Positions 1,838 to 38,845 of a DNA stretch of 38,874 nucleotides are shown one piece after another (positions within the stretch are counted from its first letter, which is position 1; every line of letters starts with the position of its first letter). The notes under the pieces are model-generated. The model ran no database searches, was not told the DNA's origin, and saw nothing but the letters and a program-made list of their open reading frames with translations. Origin of the DNA: Mariniblastus sp. (lineage in GTDB: Bacteria; Planctomycetota; Planctomycetia; Pirellulales; Pirellulaceae). The stretch lies in NCBI GenBank assembly GCA_014237975.1, contig JABACA010000031.1, positions 1-38,874 of the forward strand, written 5' to 3'. A program made the position numbers and the translations under genes.

Positions 1838-2866
1838 ATGTCACGAGAAAAAATTCTCTCCAATGCTCCCAATCCCGAAGACGACGATCCCAAGCTGCGT
1901 CCGTCACGGATGAGCGAGATGATTGGCCAAAGGAGGGTTATTGAACGGCTCAGAATCGCCATCGAGGCGGCCAAGAAACGGGAAGACGTTCTTGGGCATA
2001 TTTTGTTTGATGGACCACCCGGGTTGGGCAAGACGACGTTTGCCCACTGTATACCGAATGAAATGAACGTTCCGGTGGAATTTCTGGCGGGTCCCAGTCT
2101 CAAAGCCCCTAAGGACCTGGTTCCCAGTTTGACGAATCTGCAAAAAAAACAGGTGTTGTTTATCGATGAAATTCACAGGATTCCCAAAGCGGTGGAAGAA
2201 TATCTCTACACGGCGATGGAAGATTTCAGAATTGACCTGATTATTGGCGATGGGCTTAATGCCAGAACTCATAACGTGAAATTAAGTCCGTTTACCTTGA
2301 TCGGCGCCACGACCCGTGCAGGAATGCTGACAGGTCCACTACGAGACCGTTTTCAGATTCGCGAACACCTCGATTTTTATTCACTCGAGGAATTAACCAT
2401 GATTGTCATCAAAAATGCTGCCAAATTGAATATCGAAATTGATCAACAGGCGGCCAATGAAATCGCCAGTCGCAGTCGTAATACGCCGCGCATCGCCAAC
2501 AACCGGCTACGGTGGGTGCGGGATTATGCCCAAAGCCGTGCCGATGGTGTGATTACGTTAGACGTGGCCAAATCCGCGTTGCAGATGGCGCAAATTGACG
2601 AATTGGGATTGGATCGACAGGATGTGAAATACCTGGAGACATTGATTCGTGTTTGCATGGGAGGCCCTGCTGGAGCTGAAACGATTGCGGCGACAATGAA
2701 TGCGTCTAGCGACACGTTGGTGGATGAGATTGAACCGTTTTTGTTGCGCATCGAATTGATCACGCGAACGCCGCGTGGCCGGGTAGCGACTGCCAAAGCC
2801 CACGCTCATCTGGGAATCAACAACCCGGCAGGCCTCGATCAGGGCGGCCTGTTCACCGATTCCTGA
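1838..2866 (+). CDS. ruvB: Holliday junction branch migration helicase RuvB
   Basis: ATP-driven motor of the RuvAB complex, which migrates Holliday junctions during recombination and repair. The 342-aa protein has the usual RuvB length and all landmarks: Walker A GPPGLGKT (59-66), Walker B with DEIH (110-113), sensor 1 GATTRAG (156-162), an arginine finger in GPLRDRF (R169), and the C-terminal winged-helix domain with TPRGRVAT. Small departures from consensus are visible (NTPRIANNRLRWVRDYA), none in a catalytic residue. The ATG at 1838 has no strong Shine-Dalgarno sequence, but the N-terminus aligns with the family. ruvA and ruvC are not adjacent, so the gene stands alone here. Confidence 0.97.
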   Translation: MSREKILSNAPNPEDDDPKLRPSRMSEMIGQRRVIERLRIAIEAAKKREDVLGHILFDGPPGLGKTTFAHCIPNEMNVPVEFLAGPSLKAPKDLVPSLTNLQKKQVLFIDEIHRIPKAVEEYLYTAMEDFRIDLIIGDGLNARTHNVKLSPFTLIGATTRAGMLTGPLRDRFQIREHLDFYSLEELTMIVIKNAAKLNIEIDQQAANEIASRSRNTPRIANNRLRWVRDYAQSRADGVITLDVAKSALQMAQIDELGLDRQDVKYLETLIRVCMGGPAGAETIAATMNASSDTLVDEIEPFLLRIELITRTPRGRVATAKAHAHLGINNPAGLDQGGLFTDS

Positions 2867-3129
2867 ACCTGGCGGCTTCCCGACCGGCTCCACGCGGGAT
2901 CGCGATGGCTTTCCTAATCCTTATGATCGAAGTACACTCACCGCAAATCAGGACTTCCGACATTCGGGACGTTGACACGTTTTCGGACGAATCCTACCAT
3001 TTTTCGGTTGATTCATGATGGGCAGTTGAATTTCAAGGGCCTCGCAGCGCTCCGTTGCGGAATCGTGAATTTCCGGTTTAGATCATCGCTGTATTGGCGA
3101 CAGCCAAAATCTGAAAAAGGAAGTTAGTA

Positions 3130-4041
3130 TTGGACAAAATCGCTTTCCTGTTTCCCGGGCAAGGTGCACAGCAAGTAGGCATGTGCCGTGAGATCTGTGA
3201 GGCGTTGCCGGCTGCTCGTGAGCTGTTGGAACGGGCCAATGACGTACTACGGTACGATTTGGCGAAAATCTGTTTTGAGGGGCCTGAAGATCGCCTGAAC
3301 TCGACCGTGGTTAGCCAGCCGGCGCTGTACGTCTCCAGTTTTTTAGCTTTGGAAAAATTGCGAGACGAGTCTCCCCAGTTGATTGACGATTGCCAGGCCG
3401 CAGCCGGGTTGAGTTTGGGTGAGTATACCGCGATCGCCTTCGCCGGTGGGTTTTCATTCGAAGACGGCCTCAAACTGGTTCAGAGGCGAGGTGAGGCAAT
3501 GCAGGCCGCTGCCGATGAAACGCCGAGCGGGATGGTGAGTGTTCTTGGATTGGAACGGAGCCAGGTAGCGGAGGTCTGCGATGCAGCCCGTCAGGAGGGT
3601 GAAATACTACAGATTGCGAATCTTCTTTGTCCGGGTAACACGGCCGTATCTGGGCATCAGGAGTCGTGCAATCATGTCGCGGCGGTCGCTGAATCTGCCG
3701 GTGCCATGAAGAGTATTCCACTTGCCGTGGCGGGGGCCTTTCATACTTTGATCATGGAATCGGCTGTCGCAAAACTGGAATCAGCATTGGCCGAGGTCGA
3801 AATTCAACCTAGCCGAATTCCTGTTTATTCCAACGTGGATGCCAAGCCACACACGGAGCCCGACGAATTCCGCGAGTTGCTGGTCCGCCAGGTTTGTTCT
3901 CCCGTCCTTTGGCATGATTCGATACAACAGTTGCTGGACGATGATTTTAATGAGTTTTTTGAAGTGGGATATGGCCGGGTATTGCGGGGGCTGATGAAAC
4001 GAATCGCTCGTCGTACGCCTTGTCATGGTGTCCTTGAATAA
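3130..4041 (+). CDS. fabD: Malonyl-CoA:ACP transacylase FabD
   Basis: Loads malonyl groups from CoA onto acyl carrier protein for fatty-acid elongation in the cytoplasm. The 303-aa product shows the family's N-terminal FPGQGAQ, the nucleophile elbow GLSLGEY with Ser95, an Arg at 120 within the LVQRRGEAM block, and the catalytic His205 in AGAFHT. The start is TTG: an AAAGGAAG Shine-Dalgarno at 3116-3123 lies 6 nt upstream, and the protein then begins exactly at the conserved DKIAFLFPGQG. It is the first gene of a fabD-fabG-acpP-fabF cluster. plsX and fabH, which often precede fabD, are absent from the upstream sequence. Confidence 0.96.
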   Translation: MDKIAFLFPGQGAQQVGMCREICEALPAARELLERANDVLRYDLAKICFEGPEDRLNSTVVSQPALYVSSFLALEKLRDESPQLIDDCQAAAGLSLGEYTAIAFAGGFSFEDGLKLVQRRGEAMQAAADETPSGMVSVLGLERSQVAEVCDAARQEGEILQIANLLCPGNTAVSGHQESCNHVAAVAESAGAMKSIPLAVAGAFHTLIMESAVAKLESALAEVEIQPSRIPVYSNVDAKPHTEPDEFRELLVRQVCSPVLWHDSIQQLLDDDFNEFFEVGYGRVLRGLMKRIARRTPCHGVLE

Positions 4042-4095: not shown

Positions 4096-4857
4096 ATGAG
4101 TTTGGATTCCCTGAAAGTTGACCTGACTGACCAGACAGCGATCGTTACCGGTGCATCGCAGGGTTTGGGAAGAGCCATGGCGATTGGCTTGGCCGGTGCC
4201 GGAGCCCGTGTCGCTTGTGTTGCGCGAAATGCTGAAAAGTTGGCAGACACGGTTGAGGTGATTAAACAGGCAGGAGGTGATGCCGAGGTGATGGCTGCCA
4301 ACGTGAGTGACAGCGAATCAGTTGACAACATTGTTAGTACGGTGGCCGAGAACTGGGGGCGACTGGATATCATGGTCAACAACGCCGGTATTACCCGCGA
4401 TAATCTGTTGCCTGCCATGTCAGACGAACAATGGGACGATGTGATCAACATTAATTTGCGAGGAGCATTTCTTTTTAGTCGAGCTGCCAGCAAGGTGATG
4501 ATGCGGGCCAGATCGGGGCGGATTATTAATATTTCAAGTGTTTCCGGGTTGATTGGGAACGCGGGCCAGACCAATTATTCAGCCTCCAAGGCGGGTATGA
4601 TTGGAATGACCAGGAGTTTGAGCAAGGAGCTTGCCAAGCGAAAGGTCACGGTTAACGCGGTAGCCCCCGGTTTCATCGCCAGTGAAATGACCGAAGCTTT
4701 GGGAGATGCCATTTTGTCGGAAGTCAAAAAAGCCATACCTGCGCGGCGTTTGGGGACTCCTGACGACGTTACGGCATGTGTTTTGTTTTTGGCCAGCCCG
4801 GCAGCGGCTTACGTTACGGGGCAAGTCTTGACCGTTGATGGCGGGATGACTGGCTAG
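4096..4857 (+). CDS. fabG: 3-oxoacyl-[ACP] reductase FabG
   Basis: NADPH-dependent short-chain dehydrogenase that reduces 3-oxoacyl-ACP in each elongation cycle. In the 253-aa protein the cofactor motif TGASQGLG is at 18-25, NNAG at about 95-98, and the catalytic Ser148, Tyr161 and Lys165 (YSASK) are all present. The C-terminus ends VTGQVLTVDGGMTG as in bona fide FabG. An in-frame TTG at 4063 exists, but the ATG at 4096 follows GAAGGAAGTGAA and gives the normal N-terminus. It lies 54 nt after fabD, consistent with one transcript. Confidence 0.95.
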   Translation: MSLDSLKVDLTDQTAIVTGASQGLGRAMAIGLAGAGARVACVARNAEKLADTVEVIKQAGGDAEVMAANVSDSESVDNIVSTVAENWGRLDIMVNNAGITRDNLLPAMSDEQWDDVININLRGAFLFSRAASKVMMRARSGRIINISSVSGLIGNAGQTNYSASKAGMIGMTRSLSKELAKRKVTVNAVAPGFIASEMTEALGDAILSEVKKAIPARRLGTPDDVTACVLFLASPAAAYVTGQVLTVDGGMTG

Positions 4858-4915
4858 AAATAGGCCTGCCTGGGATAAAATGGCTCTTGAACGGTTGCAA
4901 ACTCTGTTTCACGCC

Positions 4916-4945
4916 TTGACCCTTTTGTCGATAATCCTCTATCTT
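4916..4945 (+). promoter_or_regulatory. Candidate promoter for acpP
   Basis: TTGACC (4916-4921) and TATCTT (4940-4945) are separated by 18 nt, a fair match to a housekeeping -35/-10 pair. They lie in the 181-nt spacer between fabG and acpP, about 95 nt before the acpP start. The spacer is long for an operon, which fits separate boosting of acpP. This is inference from motif matching only. Confidence 0.35.
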
Positions 4946-5038
4946 TGGATGTCAATGCAAATTACACTGGCCCCTGAAAAATGGCGAGCAGACTGTAAAA
5001 CTTAGAATTTTCAATGATTTAACAAAGGAGGCCGATCA

Positions 5039-5272
5039 ATGTCGTCGGTCGAAGAGAAAGTAATCGATATTGTTGCCGGACAATTAGGTGTGGATAAAGA
5101 GAAGATCAAACCGGAGTCCAATTTTGTCAATGACTTGGGAGCCGATTCTTTGGATACGGTGGAACTGGTTATGGAGTTGGAAGAGGAGTTTGATATCAGT
5201 ATCCCGGATGAAGACGCGGAAAAGATCCAGACCGTTGGTGAAGCGATCAAACACATCGAGAATGGTAGCTAA
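5039..5272 (+). CDS. acpP: Acyl carrier protein
   Basis: Small acidic carrier that holds growing acyl chains on a 4'-phosphopantetheine arm. The 77-aa length is typical. The modification site is Ser37 in [18 protein letters not shown], the universal ACP signature. A strong AAAGGAGG Shine-Dalgarno sequence sits just upstream of the ATG, as expected for one of the most abundant proteins in the cell. It lies between fabG and fabF, the standard position. Confidence 0.97.
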
Positions 5273-5283
5273 GTTTTTTGGTT

Positions 5284-6525
5284 ATGAAGCGTCGAATCGT
5301 TGTTACCGGGTGGGGCCTCGTTAGCTCACTTAGTTGCGAGGTTGAGGATTGCTGGAACCGCATCTTGGCAGGCGAGAGTGGTGTTCACGAGATTCGCTTG
5401 ATTGAGACCGGTGACATGAAGGTCAAGATAGGCGGTGACGTCTACGACTGGGAGTGTTCGGATTTCCTGAATCCAAAAGCCTGCAAGAAGATGGATCGAT
5501 TTTCCCAGTTTGCAATGGTCGCTGCAGATCAGGCGATCAAGTCATCGGGTATCGATTTTTCAACGGGTGATAATCTTCGATACGGTTGTCTTTTAGGTTC
5601 CGGCATTGGTGGCCTGATTACCATTTCCGAACAGATGGAGCGACTGGTCATCAAAGGTCCCAGCCGCGTTTCACCACTGACGATTCCCAAATTGATGTTA
5701 AACGCCGGTGGTGGCAACATCGCGATTCAACACAATTTGCGGGGCCCCAACTATTCCGTGGCTACGGCCTGCGCCAGTGCCGGAAATGCAATGGGCGATG
5801 CCTTGAATCTGATTGGCAAGGGCGAATGCGATCTGCTTGTCACCGGGGGAGCCGAGTGTGCCTTGACGCGAATCGGCGTCAGTGCGTTTCAGAACATGCG
5901 GGCACTTTCTTTGCGTAATGACAATCCCAGCGCGGCAAGCCGGCCGTTTGACCGTGGCAGGGATGGCTTTGTGTTGAGCGAAGCGGCTGGCATCCTGATT
6001 TTCGAGGAGCTGGAGCATGCCAAGGCCCGTAATGCGGAAATTCTGGGCGAGGTGATTGGGTTTGGAACCACCTGCGACGCCGGCCACATTACGTCTCCCG
6101 ACCCGACCGGATCGGGTGCGACACGTGCCATGAGCCTGGCTTTGCAGGATGCGGGCATTGCACCCGAAGAGGTTGACTACATCAACGCTCACGGCACCAG
6201 TACACCCTTGGGTGACAAAGCCGAAACGATCGCCATGAAAAATGTTTTTGGCGATCACGCCTATCGCGTCAGTATTTCCAGTACCAAGAGCCAGATCGGG
6301 CATTCATTGGGTGCCAGTGGTGGGCTGGAATTGATCTTTTCGCTGAAGGCGATCTTGAACAATTTAGTGCCGCCCACGATTAATCTGGATGATCCCGACC
6401 CGGAATGCGATCTGGATTATACGCCCAACGTTCCCAAGGAGCGCAAAATCAGGACCGCCATGAGCAATAGCTTCGGTTTTGGTGGCCACAATGCCTCGAT
6501 GATCGTGAAAGAATTCTCCGACTGA
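5284..6525 (+). CDS. fabF: 3-oxoacyl-[ACP] synthase II FabF
   Basis: Condensing enzyme that extends acyl-ACP with malonyl-ACP. The 413-aa product has the thiolase-fold triad Cys163 (VATACASAGNA), His303 (NAHGTSTPLGD) and His340 (GHSLGASGG), plus Lys335, and ends with the SNSFGFGGHNAS block. The ATG at 5284 begins MKRRIVVTGWG, the expected N-terminus; a TTG two codons earlier (5278) is an alternative. No clear Shine-Dalgarno sequence is present and the acpP stop is only 11 nt away, so translation may be coupled. A terminator follows at 6646-6670. Confidence 0.96.
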   Translation: MKRRIVVTGWGLVSSLSCEVEDCWNRILAGESGVHEIRLIETGDMKVKIGGDVYDWECSDFLNPKACKKMDRFSQFAMVAADQAIKSSGIDFSTGDNLRYGCLLGSGIGGLITISEQMERLVIKGPSRVSPLTIPKLMLNAGGGNIAIQHNLRGPNYSVATACASAGNAMGDALNLIGKGECDLLVTGGAECALTRIGVSAFQNMRALSLRNDNPSAASRPFDRGRDGFVLSEAAGILIFEELEHAKARNAEILGEVIGFGTTCDAGHITSPDPTGSGATRAMSLALQDAGIAPEEVDYINAHGTSTPLGDKAETIAMKNVFGDHAYRVSISSTKSQIGHSLGASGGLELIFSLKAILNNLVPPTINLDDPDPECDLDYTPNVPKERKIRTAMSNSFGFGGHNASMIVKEFSD

Positions 6526-6689: not shown

Positions 6690-8477
6690 TCAGTATCCCG
6701 GACAATCCTGTAGCTCAACATCGACAAACTTGGCATGGGCCTGGACGTAGTTTTGGCGGACCAGTTCGCGAGCATCTGACTCAGGCATGAAGCCATCTGA
6801 AAAATTCGGTATGTCAAGGTCGATGGTGCCTCGTGCAGCAAAAACGAGGTGCCGAATCAGATCAAATGGATCCTCGTCACCGATCGCAAACCGGAGTGTT
6901 GTCGGGCTGAGTCCGGCCGCATTAAGCGCCTCTTCATCTAGCTCGGAATGTGTCGTGAGTGCCGGGCAGCTAACGATGGTGTTGGATTGCCCCAGGCTGA
7001 TCATGTGGCCAAACGTGGGCGACAGGGAGTCAACAAACCGTTTGAACGTGTTGGTTTGTATCTCGCCCATGTCAATAGTGAACAACGGCGCAGGCAGACC
7101 CAGATGCATATATTTTTGGCAAAGCTCAAAGTTGTCGTTACCAGCGACAGCATTGCAATGAACGGTAATACCGGGGTGGGCATCGAGGAATTTGGCGAAT
7201 ATCAGTGTGTTGATGCACTTGCGCAACATGCGCACGGCCAGGGTCCGCATCCCTTGCATGACTTCAAACGCGGCATCCGCATTAAGAAACGCTCCTTTGA
7301 CATAATAAACGTTCCAAAACATGGTTTGGTCCCAGGAGAATTCGCCGAACGACTCGCCTTTGGGAATAAACATGTTTTCATTTCTGCCAATCACGCAGCC
7401 GGCAATCGCACTACCACATCCACTGAGGTCCTTGGTGTAACTGTGAATGACGTAATCTGGACGTTCGACCGGGTCTTCGCGCTGCAGCGTGCGGTAGAGA
7501 AACGGAGTTCCCACGGTTGCATCCAGCACGACTGTCAGGTTCTCGGCATGGGCCTTTTTGCAGATTTCAGCAACGTCCATCACGTAGCCATGGGGATTAC
7601 AGGGTGATTCCAGATAGACATAAATTCTTCGTCCTTCCGCTAGCCGCTTGGCGTGCTTTTTCCGCGCCTGATCAAGACACGCTGAAAAGTCGGCTGCGGA
7701 GTAACCATCAAACGTCTCAACAGAGACTTCGAGGTTGCCGTCCTTGGCGTACCAGTCATGAATCAACTGGTAAGCGCCTCCGTAGATGTTGCGGCTGGTA
7801 ATCAGGATGTCATCGCGACCCAATACGTGTGCCAGGACGGCATCAATGGCGGCCATGCCACTGTTGAAGTTCCAGGCCAGGTACTCATTGGCATAAGGTC
7901 CCGCTTCCAGGTCGACAATATGATTTGCCAGGCAAACACTGGTTGGGTTGAGGAGTCGTGAGTAGATTTCCAACATCAGTTCCTTGCCGCGAAACGCATC
8001 GGCAATCCACTCGGAACATGCATAAATGTAGGTTGCCGTTCGGGTAATCACGGGGGTCGCCGAGAAAAGTGCCGTCACGTTGTCGAAAACAGGGTACGGG
8101 CCTTTGGCGATCTGCGTGGCACCGGAATAACCAAGGGCCTGGTACGATTTCCGGAACGGATGCTGCAGCGTGTCCAGCAATTTAGCGAGCTGGAATGAGA
8201 GGAATTTTTTGGCGTTGAATCGCTGGATTTTTTCCGTCTGGTCCAGATCGTTCATCGATTCAATTGTCAATTGCCACAATCGCTCAATGTCATGCTGGCT
8301 CTCGTACATTCGAGAGACAATTTGTTTTAATGTCTGCCCGTATTCGTCGTCCGGATTGATCCCAAAGTGTTCCAACTGTTCATCGACCAGCTCGGCAACG
8401 GTCGTGGCCTGGGTGGAATTACGGCGAGGAGACAGCTTTTTCAACAGGGCAATAGACGAATCGGTCGCGGTGGTCAT
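6690..8477 (-). CDS. Large PLP-dependent enzyme of the Cys/Met metabolism (trans-sulfuration) family
   Basis: Fold-type I PLP enzyme related to cystathionine gamma-synthase and methionine gamma-lyase. At 595 aa it is far longer than the roughly 400 aa usual for the family. The catalytic part starts after about 130 residues: YSRLLNPT (172-179), the cofactor Asp in VVLDAT (D319) and the Schiff-base lysine in HSYTKDLSG (K349). The first 130 residues are helical with charged segments and match no domain I know. Substrate cannot be read from sequence. The ATG at 8477 has GGAG 8 nt upstream. The gene is divergent from the small membrane protein at 8589 and isolated from any sulfur or methionine gene. 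Confidence 0.85.
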   Translation of the reverse strand: MTTATDSSIALLKKLSPRRNSTQATTVAELVDEQLEHFGINPDDEYGQTLKQIVSRMYESQHDIERLWQLTIESMNDLDQTEKIQRFNAKKFLSFQLAKLLDTLQHPFRKSYQALGYSGATQIAKGPYPVFDNVTALFSATPVITRTATYIYACSEWIADAFRGKELMLEIYSRLLNPTSVCLANHIVDLEAGPYANEYLAWNFNSGMAAIDAVLAHVLGRDDILITSRNIYGGAYQLIHDWYAKDGNLEVSVETFDGYSAADFSACLDQARKKHAKRLAEGRRIYVYLESPCNPHGYVMDVAEICKKAHAENLTVVLDATVGTPFLYRTLQREDPVERPDYVIHSYTKDLSGCGSAIAGCVIGRNENMFIPKGESFGEFSWDQTMFWNVYYVKGAFLNADAAFEVMQGMRTLAVRMLRKCINTLIFAKFLDAHPGITVHCNAVAGNDNFELCQKYMHLGLPAPLFTIDMGEIQTNTFKRFVDSLSPTFGHMISLGQSNTIVSCPALTTHSELDEEALNAAGLSPTTLRFAIGDEDPFDLIRHLVFAARGTIDLDIPNFSDGFMPESDARELVRQNYVQAHAKFVDVELQDCPGY

Positions 8478-8588: not shown

Positions 8589-8954
8589 ATGAAGAAAACG
8601 TACAGAATTGGATTTCGAAGATCGTTCCGTTTTTATGGACTTATGTTCATTCTGTTTGGTTTGTTTCTCACCATTCTCGATATCCGAGACGGTTGGATCG
8701 ATGCGGAAGCCTGGCACGACGCGATCTGGTCGGCCGCTTTCAGTTTTGTAGGCATCTGTGGTCTGGGGGCCATTATCTGGAGTTTTCCACTTTTATATGC
8801 CCGCGGTCTCTCGCGCAGCCAGATCGGCAAATCGAATCGTCGCCCTCGTCAATCGTTTGCTGAAATGATCCACACCGACAGTGCTGATCTTGAAACGGCT
8901 GATGACCCTGCCGATGCCGACGGCAACGTCGCGGCGGATGAGCCTGCCAACTAG
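8589..8954 (+). CDS. Small two-helix membrane protein, unknown function
   Basis: A 121-aa protein with a basic N-terminus (KKTYRIGFRRSFRFY), a first hydrophobic segment at about 17-32, a second at about 45-68 (FVGICGLGAIIWSFPLLYA) and a hydrophilic acidic tail rich in Asp and Ala. The pattern predicts an inner-membrane hairpin with the tail in the cytoplasm. I do not recognise a family. Its last 4 nt overlap the 3' end of the convergent molybdopterin-domain gene. Confidence 0.7.
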   Translation: MKKTYRIGFRRSFRFYGLMFILFGLFLTILDIRDGWIDAEAWHDAIWSAAFSFVGICGLGAIIWSFPLLYARGLSRSQIGKSNRRPRQSFAEMIHTDSADLETADDPADADGNVAADEPAN

Positions 8955-9997
8955 TCGAATTGTGCCAGGAAATATTCTCGTTGGTCCGGCGTCAAAGGCT
9001 CCAGGATTTGACGGGGAAGAGTCGTCGTTGAGTCGATCCGGGCGCCCAGCACCGCCCTGCCCTGCCCGTCAAATTCGCAGAATGAGGATCCGATCAACGA
9101 ACTATCTGTCAGGTCGGCACCCCGCAAGTCAGCACCCGCCAGATTGGCTCCCTCGAGATCGGTTCCGATCAGTTTTGCGAATTGAAGGTTGGTCTTGCGA
9201 AGATGACTATTGGACATGTTCGCACGGGAGAAATCTGCGTCCTGTAAATTGGATTCATTGAAGTTTGCATTTCGCAAAGAGGCTCCTTGGGCCATCAGGT
9301 TTGATAAATCCCTGCCGCTGGCATCGATGCTGCGAAGATCGTGGCCCACAAAATTCCTGTCGGCAATTAACCGGGCCGCCGTTCGTCGATCTAGGGTGGG
9401 TGCCATGTAACGTTGCTCAAGCCAGGGGTCGGCGGCGTTGTGATAGCCAGATTCGGCCTCCCAAAAACCGAGCCTGTCTGCCCGTAACAAATCGATCGCC
9501 TTCAGCCATTTGACACTCTTGTAAAAATATTTGCCTGGTACGACGTTGCGGAGGGGACCGCCATGTTCGGGGGCCAGTGGTTGGCCATCGCAGGTATGGG
9601 CAATCAGAGTTTTTTGCTGGATCGCCTCCAGCAATGGCAGTGACGTGGAATGGTTCCGCGTGGATTGCGCGACAAATGAAACAAATTCAATACCCTCACT
9701 GACGGTTAGCGAGCGGATTAAATCTTCCAGTAACACCCCGGTGAATTCGACCGAGAGTTTGGACCATCTTGTGACACAATGGATGTCCATATTCAGCGAG
9801 GTCTGTTTCAGTTTGTGTAATGCTGGCAGTGAGAAATGGACGTTTGTTTCGTCCGATCCGGACACCGCCAGCTGCCACGGTTGGTTGCCCGAAGCTGGTT
9901 GGCGCTCGCCGATCAGGGGCCATTTACCCACTGCCACCAGCTGTTGACCCGGTGGAAGGGGCGGATGTTGTCGATCGGTCTGGTTGGGAGTCGACAT
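8951..9997 (-). CDS. Molybdopterin-binding oxidoreductase domain fused to pentapeptide repeats
   Basis: A 348-aa two-part protein. Residues about 30-180 resemble the sulfite-oxidase/MsrP (YedY) molybdopterin domain: HCVTRWS with Cys74 at the expected Mo-ligand position, VEFTGVLLEDLI, and the block HGGPLRNVVPGKYFYKSVKW (145-164). Residues about 215-306 are pentapeptide repeats of the A(D/N)LxG type (LEGANLAGADLRGADL), which fold as a right-handed beta-helix. No signal peptide or Tat motif is visible, so it is probably cytoplasmic, unlike MsrP. No haem partner gene is adjacent. The fusion is unusual; the substrate is unknown. The start at 9997 gives MSTPNQTDRQ; the first 25 residues are low-complexity and may be disordered. 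Confidence 0.85.
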   Translation of the reverse strand: MSTPNQTDRQHPPLPPGQQLVAVGKWPLIGERQPASGNQPWQLAVSGSDETNVHFSLPALHKLKQTSLNMDIHCVTRWSKLSVEFTGVLLEDLIRSLTVSEGIEFVSFVAQSTRNHSTSLPLLEAIQQKTLIAHTCDGQPLAPEHGGPLRNVVPGKYFYKSVKWLKAIDLLRADRLGFWEAESGYHNAADPWLEQRYMAPTLDRRTAARLIADRNFVGHDLRSIDASGRDLSNLMAQGASLRNANFNESNLQDADFSRANMSNSHLRKTNLQFAKLIGTDLEGANLAGADLRGADLTDSSLIGSSFCEFDGQGRAVLGARIDSTTTLPRQILEPLTPDQREYFLAQFD

Positions 9998-36406: not shown

Positions 36407-37033
36407 TTAGCAATCGCCTTTTTATAATCTGTTTTTAATTCTCGCAACCCTATATGTCAAAATTATTAAATAATTTCCAAGGTCTTTGGATCGCTTCGAT
36501 GAAACAGCGGAATCTGATTGGCTCGCTGAAAAATTTCGCGTAATTATTGCCCATTCAGCTGAATGGAATCTCGGCTGCCGGTCGGAAACCGCCCAGTCGA
36601 AATTGGTCGATTCTTGAAATCGTTTGCCAACGGGTCGATGAAGAGCTCGATGATTGTCCAAGACGCATCCGATTGACTGCTGGAAAGGCTGAAAAACGTT
36701 GCCCATCGATCAACCCGGAGCTTTCCACATTTGACCGAAAATACAACGACAAGAACTTGGAAAACAACTTCAGGGAACACTGCAAAGTACGGGTAGTTTC
36801 AGTCAGTTGGTTGGAGAGCTTGGTAGAACCTCAATGGGACACCGTTTATCAGCACGCTCAGCTTGGCTCCATCATGACAGGCGATATCATGGCGGCATGA
36901 GCGGCGCACGACCAGCTGCCTATTCGCCCGATCGCCCAAGGGAAATACGAACTCATCCGCCGTGATGCTGAAGATTTCTCCATCGATTACGCGGGTGACT
37001 GGACTGTTTAGAGGCAATATTGCGAAAGACCTG
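36407..37033. other. Long stretch without a convincing gene
   Basis: Apart from the DUF1559 promoter area I cannot support a gene here. A plus-strand frame of 117 codons (36547-36900, TTG start) and minus-strand frames at 36544-36780 and 36799-37122 are open, but none shows a recognisable domain, a ribosome-binding site or a protein-like pattern. A degraded gene is possible. Confidence 0.3.
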
Positions 37034-37546
37034 ATGAATTCACTGCCCCAAATTGGAAAGGTTGTTTGGCTTGGTATTCGACCGGAACGGCGAGCCAAAC
37101 TCCATGCCGTCGAAAGCGTCATGCTAGACGTTGATGATGGCGTGGCAGGAGATCATTTCAACGGACCGGCCGGCTCGAAACGTCAGGTGACACTGTTTCA
37201 GGATGAACATTTACGTACGATTGCAGAGTTGTTGCACAGGGAAGCGGTGGATCCGTTAGATATTCGTCGAAACATTGTTATTCAGGGGATCAACTTACTG
37301 GCGCTCAAGGATCAGGAATTCAGAATCGGAGACGCCTTGTTGTGTGGAACCGGCACTTGTCCACCCTGTAGCAGGATGGAAGAGAATTTGGGACCGGGAG
37401 GTTACAACGCAATGCGGGGTCATGGAGGGATTACCGCGCGAGTAGTTCAGTCCGGGTTGGTGTCGGTGGGCAATCCGGTGAGTCGTTGCGTTGTCAAAGA
37501 TGTGTCAGCCGCCAGTTGCCATACGCCGGGCGGTCCAGCTAAATAG
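37034..37546 (+). CDS. MOSC domain protein
   Basis: A 170-aa single-domain MOSC protein. The core shows VAGDHFNGPAGSKRQVTLFQDEH, DIRRNIVIQGINL, and the C-terminal block CGTGTCPPCSRMEENLGPGGYNAMRGHGGITARV, with the conserved Cys that in this superfamily handles sulfur or molybdenum-cofactor chemistry. Small stand-alone MOSC proteins are mostly uncharacterised. The frame is open to GTG 36962 and ATG 36965; I chose the ATG at 37034 because it starts just before the first conserved strand (IGKVVWLGIRPERRA). No ribosome-binding site clearly decides. Confidence 0.88.
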   Translation: MNSLPQIGKVVWLGIRPERRAKLHAVESVMLDVDDGVAGDHFNGPAGSKRQVTLFQDEHLRTIAELLHREAVDPLDIRRNIVIQGINLLALKDQEFRIGDALLCGTGTCPPCSRMEENLGPGGYNAMRGHGGITARVVQSGLVSVGNPVSRCVVKDVSAASCHTPGGPAK

Positions 37547-37622: not shown

Positions 37623-38342
37623 CTAGTCGCCGCCACCCGCCTTCTTTTTGGGTGAATCCTTTTGTTTTTTGGTATCTGTTTTCCCGGGGTCTTTCTTCGG
37701 GTTTTTTTCAAACAGACCGACGTACTCGCCGTACCCTTCCTTCTCCAGTTCTTCCTTGGGAATAAAACGTAGCGAGGCTGAGTTAATGCAGAATCTCAGT
37801 CCGCCCTTTTCCTTGGGTCCGTCTGAGAAAACATGCCCCAGGTGGGAGTCGGCAGTTTTCGCCCTGACTTCGGTTCTCGCGTACCCCAAATGATAATCTG
37901 TATTGGTTGTGAATTCATCTTTTTTGATGGGCTTGGTAAAGGCTGGCCAACCACAGCCCGAATCGTACTTGTCCAATGAAGAAAAAAGTGGTTCACCGGA
38001 AATGATGCAAACGTAGATTCCGTCCTTGAAATGCTTGTCATACTTGTTGGTGAAAGGTCGTTCGGTTGCTTCGTTTTGCGTGACATCGTATTGAAGACGA
38101 GTGAGTTTTTTCTTGAGTTCTTTGTCCGAAAGAGGAACGTACGGATCTCGTTTTTTCTCTGTCGTTTTGGACGTATCCTGATCTTGCGGAGCCGAGTTTT
38201 CTTCGATGTTACTCACTGGGTTTTTCTCATGTGGTTGGGTGGAAGAAGAAGTCGATTCCGTTGCCAAATTTTGACCGAGGTCGTGCCAGATAATCGCTGC
38301 GACAACGATTAGAATTGCAGCCATCAAATAGATTTTGCTCAT
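37623..38342 (-). CDS. msrB: Membrane-anchored peptide-methionine (R)-S-oxide reductase MsrB
   Basis: Repairs oxidised methionine (R-sulfoxide) in proteins. In the 239-aa product an N-terminal hydrophobic helix (about 4-19) acts as signal or anchor, followed by a Ser/Glu-rich linker (about 25-68) and the MsrB domain: [18 protein letters not shown] and the catalytic Cys185 in [12 protein letters not shown]. The zinc-binding CxxC pairs of many MsrBs are missing (CIIS, ADSH), so it is the zinc-free form. The Lys/Asp-rich tail is low-complexity. The ATG at 38342 overlaps the TGA of the upstream gene (ATGA), so the two are coupled. Export suggests envelope protein repair. Confidence 0.92.
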
Positions 38343-38845
38343 TGGTTTAATTTCTCGCACAAAAGGTTCATGCGCCGACGGTTGACCCCCATGTCGGAGT
38401 AGCCGATTCGTGACGCGGAGCGAAACTGAACAACTTTTTCTTTATCATCGATAAAAAACTCGACGTCGTCAACAAACCTGAATATCCGGCTGGTAAATTC
38501 TGCTCGCAGGTAATGACTGTCTTGTTCGACAATTTTAGAGCCTGGCATTGATTTAACGGCAGCCACAAGCCGCTGCATTTCTTCGGTATTGCTGCCTGTA
38601 AACGGGATTGGCGCCATTTGCTGGCCTGGCTTTGAAGATTGGGTGGATACTCCATTGGGCGTCGCGGCCAGTGGGGAAAAACGACCGTTCTTTACCCCAA
38701 GATTGACTGGACGCTTAGCAGAGAAACTCAAAAAATACATCCCGAAAACTCCGACCAAGGCCAATATCAATATTTTTCGAAACCAACGCAAGTGGCGAGG
38801 TGGATGGCTCCCGTTTTCAGCAACTGTTGGTGTTGTTTCATTCAT
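38339..38845 (-). CDS. DUF1499 family protein
   Basis: A 168-aa protein with one N-terminal transmembrane helix (about 24-42, [17 protein letters not shown]). The C-terminal half has the DUF1499 signature: [24 protein letters not shown] and [19 protein letters not shown]. The function of the family is unknown; it is usually envelope-associated. The stop overlaps the msrB start by ATGA, implying a joint role or at least joint expression. The ATG at 38845 opens the frame 29 nt from the window edge. Confidence 0.85.

Follow-up and report, generated by a model that had tools for sequence, protein, structure and literature searches.

What might a protein do that carries, in a single reading frame, a molybdopterin domain of the sulfite-oxidase family and a run of pentapeptide repeats? 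The question is raised by a gene at positions 8951..9997, minus strand, of a 38,874-nucleotide stretch of DNA from Mariniblastus sp. (here called the window), for which an initial annotation had proposed such a fusion from the sequence and its open reading frames. The plus strand of 8951-9997 is full of stops, and the open reading frame, which encodes 348 residues, is that of the minus strand. A Pfam search bore out both parts of the fusion: Oxidored_molyb (PF00174) matched the window protein at residues 38-179 (9461..9886, minus strand) with 113.1 bits against a cut-off of 24 (E 1.3e-32), and Pentapeptide (PF00805) matched it with 66.6 bits against a cut-off of 20.2 (E 1.3e-18). The same search found neither a dimerisation nor a haem domain. 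The two motifs that had been singled out, HCVTRWS with the putative molybdenum ligand Cys74 (codon at 9776..9778, minus strand) and HGGPLRNVVPG, are both present in the translation. Beyond the Oxidored_molyb match, parts of residues 15-31 and 180-196 are conserved too. The pentapeptide-repeat region, a predicted beta-helix, covers about residues 219-308 (9074..9343, minus strand) and is followed by a less conserved C-terminal tail of residues 309-348 (8954..9073, minus strand), which could form a cap.

The N-terminus of the window protein has 14 residues ahead of the sequence PPGQ, and motif and hydropathy tests found no twin arginine or hydrophobic stretch in it, the peak hydropathy over 19 residues being 1.08; the earlier remark that an export signal is apparently missing thus held. 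An RR pair occurs in the N-terminal part of four of the 56 fused sequences (L011, L029, L040 and L059), two of the 56 not being placeable by the PPxQ motif in this survey. With no export signal visible, the fusion protein is predicted to be cytoplasmic. Comparison of the window gene with that of L011 gave dN/dS of about 0.11 for the N-terminal half and 0.09 for the C-terminal half, with dS >1 and, judged from these ratios, purifying selection is acting on both halves. The reading that we favour, and hold tentatively, is that the protein is a cytoplasmic molybdenum oxidoreductase whose substrate is a small sulfur compound, that a pyridoxal phosphate (PLP) enzyme encoded beside it acts in the same pathway and that the helix serves protein contact.

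Cys74 was invariant in the alignment, in 56/56 fused and 16/16 standalone sequences; homologues lacking it, which the initial annotation had named as evidence against its proposal, do not occur among these 72. Also invariant in all 72 were H73, T76, W78, G146, P148, R150, Y157, K160, K163, W164 and Y185, and the G-x-P-x-R...Y..K..KW block showed no variation across the fused and standalone sequences. When a profile of the molybdenum domain, built from 20 fused and standalone sequences, was run against the PDB, the top match was MsrP/YedY (1xdq; E 4.4e-21), followed by other sulfite-oxidase enzymes, and Cys74 aligned with the cysteine of E. coli MsrP/YedY 1xdq and with that of 1ogp. This homology to MsrP, together with MoeA- and MoaA-type genes found in the same genome, strongly suggests that the fusion protein binds the molybdenum cofactor.

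The kinship with MsrP also raises an alternative, namely that the fusion is a cytoplasmic MsrP-like reductase of protein methionine sulfoxide whose helix docks oxidised client proteins, which we consider unlikely. MsrP/YedY is the nearest PDB relative and the best NCBIfam match as well (NF003767 equivalog, 56.2 bits), and the residue five past Cys74 is Ser or Thr in 72/72 sequences and never the Arg of canonical sulfite oxidases. However, the score lies far under the MsrP cut-off of 207 bits, no Tat signal was seen in the window protein, and the repair of methionine sulfoxide in the cytoplasm is usually carried out by MsrA/MsrB. Furthermore, MsrP depends for its electrons on the membrane protein MsrQ, from which it receives them (excerpt of PMC7759655). 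Elsewhere in the window, some 27 kb away from the fusion gene, positions 36962-37546 (plus strand) encode a protein with a MOSC domain (PF03473, E 1.3e-14), and its gene adjoins that of a SelR/MsrB-type protein (PF01641, E 1.5e-47) at 37623-38360 (minus strand).

A second alternative, a cytoplasmic sulfite-oxidising enzyme that serves sulfite detoxification, would fit the sulfur-enzyme neighbour and the weak matches to the SoxC, SorA and SorT models, but we regard it as quite unlikely, as these matches (45.3 bits against a cut-off of 420, 28.6 against 600 and 28.0 against 570, respectively) are far under cut-off. Canonical sulfite oxidases have an Arg five past the Cys (as in CAGNRR) and a dimerisation domain, whereas in the fusion both are absent. 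In addition, contig C38 of the same genome carries, cut short by the contig end, the start of a protein with TCAGNRR and, by eye, a Tat-like N-terminus (L002 1282-1775), so that sulfite oxidation may be covered elsewhere in the genome; the gene ahead of it resembles what we take to be a TAXI-type solute-binding protein. A sulfite oxidase proper was rejected on the model cut-offs, the missing Arg and this separate TCAGNRR protein.

In the C-terminal half, 14 consecutive pentads at residues 239-308 fit the pattern [ASTCVG]x[LFMIV]xx, as against a longest run of 4 in 2000 shuffles of residues 200-348, and the looser first coils at ~219-238 bring the total to 17-18 pentads, in agreement with the about 17 repeats counted originally. 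This half of the protein matches solved repeat proteins, among them All3740, NP275, Alr5209, QnrB1 and 'beta1' entries. Conservation was 2.68 bits in the molybdenum domain, a lower but still substantial 2.33 in the helix and 1.70 in the tail. Within the helix, the surface positions of every fourth pentad were more conserved than the others (3.09 versus 1.44-1.78 bits, permutation p 0.004), and this 20-residue periodicity fits a four-sided helix with one conserved face. As a control, a second pentapeptide family encoded in this genome was analysed from 30 of its 43 matches, thinned to 21 rows, and it gave a comparable period-4 signal (p 0.018 in the core, p 0.006 over the longer stretch). Since the control family behaves likewise, the conserved face supports the fold and not a special docking role, and we dropped it as evidence of a docking surface. 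The helix may be a docking or oligomerisation platform; the initial annotation had suggested a scaffolding or target-binding role.

Some pentapeptide proteins bind gyrase, and the protein might conceivably be a non-enzymatic, cofactor-binding sensor or carrier with a helix directed at some regulatory target, perhaps DNA gyrase in the manner of Qnr and MfpA. Weak matches to the Qnr and MfpA models speak for this, but for each curated pentapeptide model among the listed matches the score falls far short of its cut-off (MfpA 29.4 bits against 360, Qnr 25 against 240), and the residues expected at the molybdenum site are strictly conserved, which makes a sensor or carrier highly improbable. A Qnr-like protein was rejected on the same curated model cut-offs.

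To what extent is the fusion shared by other bacteria? Scanning genome contigs with six peptide patterns, a procedure that recovers close relatives only, yielded 71 loci, in 55 of which both halves lie in one frame and in 16 of which the molybdenum domain is alone in its frame. Alignment A1, comprising 50 members (the window protein and 49 of the 55 fused loci), matched both Pfam families throughout, with Oxidored_molyb at E<=0.001 in 50/50. Most of the named hosts are Pirellulaceae or further members of Planctomycetota, including named strains of Rhodopirellula, Aporhodopirellula and Roseiconus; further hosts, according to metagenome-assembled genome (MAG) labels that may be wrong, are Alphaproteobacteria, Rhodobacteraceae, Pseudomonadales, Armatimonadetes, Tectomicrobia and Acidimicrobiia, and a complete Hyphomicrobiales chromosome (L047) carries the fusion. 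An artefact of annotation or assembly is next to impossible as an explanation and was rejected, given a single uninterrupted frame conserved across 55 named loci, the complete chromosome and named strains among them, and dN/dS of about 0.1 in both halves.

In a sample of 199 Pirellulaceae genomes, fused homologues were present in 49, all with E of 1.8e-82 or lower and three of the matches ending early on one side; 33 had a standalone form, which is short and matched with E between 5e-38 and 9e-25, in some cases with terminal stops read through. The initial annotation had suggested checking the co-occurrence of both domains across planctomycetes, and the fusion proved to be conserved in the phylum. 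Fused and standalone forms were found together in one Pirellulaceae genome (G057) against 8.1 expected (p 5e-4, uncorrected for kinship), as if the two were alternatives. However, in a phylum sample of 392 genomes, of which 78 matched at E 1e-30 or better and 11 had matches spanning both halves, two of the 11 fused genomes (G556 and G263) also had the standalone form, about the chance number; as there is no avoidance in this sample, that in Pirellulaceae may be no more than an effect of lineage. In an unrooted 92-row tree of the molybdenum domain, whose bootstrap is unsettled and in which L064 and L057 form long branches, a branch with support 98/79, recovered in 100% of 200 bootstrap trees, separated the 59 fused rows from the others. 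Because the fused rows are placed together in this way, a single fusion event would be the simplest history.

Several variants of the arrangement were seen. In L081, a Thermoflexales contig, a pentapeptide gene (1958-2494, plus strand) lies directly upstream of a standalone molybdenum-domain gene (2555-3268, plus strand), the sole such split counterpart seen when the 16 standalone loci with names and another 17 stretches with a standalone gene were examined. L058, from a Pseudomonadales MAG, has an N-terminal DUF454 (E 7.8e-33) in frame with the molybdenum-pentapeptide protein (4572-6011, plus strand) and is possibly a membrane-anchored version. The fused gene of genome G057 has another pentapeptide ORF, separate from its own repeats, just upstream of it (L094 1403-1813, plus strand). 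Long upstream frames in L016, L039, L046, L047, L053 and L059, and likewise in L061, L062, L063, L065 and L095, looked by eye like non-coding read-through; of these only L059 and L063 were alike (41% over 121 residues, E 8e-6). Among 695 plasmid records matching the query, none covered 80% of it.

Directly downstream of the fusion gene, at a distance of 473 bp and on the same strand, the window carries a gene for a 595-residue PLP-dependent enzyme of the Cys/Met-metabolism type (6690..8477, minus strand). Its Cys_Met_Meta_PP domain spans residues 139-544 (E 2.9e-58), and its best curated models were O-acetylhomoserine (OAH) sulfhydrylase and methionine gamma-lyase, with the cut-off reached by none of the best 25. 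The N-terminal extension of ~138 residues has no Pfam match and is partly conserved in 20 aligned copies. Between the two genes lies a small ORF of 121 residues (8589..8954, plus strand), tail-to-tail with the fusion gene, whose 3' end it overlaps by 4 nt; its product has a hydrophobic N-terminal half and no Pfam match, and it recurs, 55-57% identical, on the opposite strand between the same two genes in L011 and L012.

The gene pair itself recurs. Of the fused loci, 54 offered 500 nt or more of flanking room. In 18 of these the PLP gene follows the fusion gene directly and in the same orientation, in one it lies upstream on the opposite strand, and in 35 the flanks read contain no PLP gene. 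In L040, L048, L049 and L054 the fusion and PLP genes share a 4-nt ATG/TGA overlap (seen at base level in L048 and L040). The fusion was present in 49, the PLP gene in 22 and both in 16 of the 199 Pirellulaceae genomes, an association with p 5e-7 (uncorrected for kinship), and the two are adjacent in 10 of the 16. The PLP gene also occurs alone: six of the 22 PLP-bearing Pirellulaceae genomes have no fusion, five of seven PLP-bearing genomes in the phylum sample have no fusion match at E 1e-30, and around 16 of 17 non-adjacent PLP copies (that of G084 left out) there was no molybdenum-domain or pentapeptide gene and no recurrent neighbour. On the tree, the presence of a downstream PLP gene requires seven changes (51 of the 59 fused rows, eight on short contigs being dropped). 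Mariniblastus-type loci have the pair, by eye, between ATP-synthase-like and fatty-acid-like genes; in L034, L043 and the L040/48/49/54 group, these Mariniblastus neighbours (clusters c2, c3 and c5-c7) do not appear in the flanks read, whereas the PLP gene is retained. Some fused loci also have nearby a member of a broad, recurrent ABC-ATPase cluster (c4). The neighbours of L031, L039 and L056 were mutually unrelated (M56 peptidase, ThuA and kinase) and, of eight neighbours scanned, that of L064 was a tRNA synthetase and four had no match. Around standalone genes, no electron partner was found among the neighbours in L085 and L086, and in L066, L067, L070-L073, L075 and L076 (Delta/Desulfobacterales-type labels) three recurring genes (clusters c12-c14) that run in the opposite direction flank the gene.

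The recurrent PLP neighbour hints at sulfur amino-acid metabolism as the setting in which the fusion acts, and gives a possible shape to the small-sulfur-compound oxidoreductase that we favour. Such an enzyme would be a cytoplasmic, molybdenum-cofactor-dependent member of the sulfite-oxidase superfamily, with the thiolate of Cys74 as ligand and a four-sided pentapeptide beta-helix in place of the usual C-terminal dimerisation domain. Its molybdenum domain would most likely catalyse oxygen-atom transfer with a small sulfur compound (a sulfoxide, a sulfinate or a sulfite-like molecule) as donor or acceptor, in a reaction of sulfur amino-acid metabolism; the neighbouring Cys/Met-type PLP enzyme, where present, would act in the same pathway; and the helix would most likely make protein-protein contacts, either in self-association or in docking a redox or metabolic partner. 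A bolder version, which we think improbable, is that the helix acts as a docking rail, keeping the molybdenum domain pressed to its partner, the PLP enzyme, with a sulfur intermediate passed directly between the active sites; were this true, one fusion would give rise to a two-enzyme sulfur-handling assembly across Planctomycetota and some other phyla.

We found no paper on a fusion of pentapeptide repeats to a sulfite-oxidase-type domain in the open-access literature searched, and the Cys/Met-type PLP gene directly downstream of fused loci is a new observation. Together, the conserved fusion and its recurrent neighbour provide a concrete lead, towards sulfur amino-acid metabolism, on the role of an uncharacterised enzyme group, and, with the repeats joined to a likely metalloenzyme, their function could be assayed via catalysis.

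How does the fusion compare with known systems? Closest are standalone sulfite-oxidase-like oxidoreductases, which are 33-44% identical to the fusion over the molybdenum domain and share its HCVT and Y..K..KW motifs in 16/16 sequences but, unlike the fusion, lack the pentapeptide repeats; a ferredoxin reductase gene adjoins one of two annotated relatives on plasmids and not the other. Matched by description, they apparently belong to group 3 of the sulfite-oxidase family, described in an excerpt of PMC7759655 as uncharacterised cytoplasmic single-subunit enzymes, and the window protein, compared by description only, would fit this group in its small size, the absence of a visible signal and its standalone relatives. 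A gene called 'sulfite oxidase-like oxidoreductase', linked to these proteins by name only, is upregulated in Gordonia on organosulfur sources (excerpt of PMC7661421). The repeats of the fusion are of the type found in MfpA, Qnr, HetL and Alr5209, from which it differs in the attached molybdoenzyme domain and in scores below every curated subfamily cut-off. E. coli MsrP/YedY (1xdq) is like the fusion in its molybdenum domain by profile, its aligned catalytic-type Cys and its CVxxWS pattern, but it is periplasmic with a membrane partner (excerpt of PMC7759655), whereas the window protein has no visible signal, carries repeats and scores below the MsrP cut-off. With the canonical sulfite oxidases and dehydrogenases (1ogp, 1sox, SorA and SoxC), the fusion has the superfamily and the position of the Cys in common.
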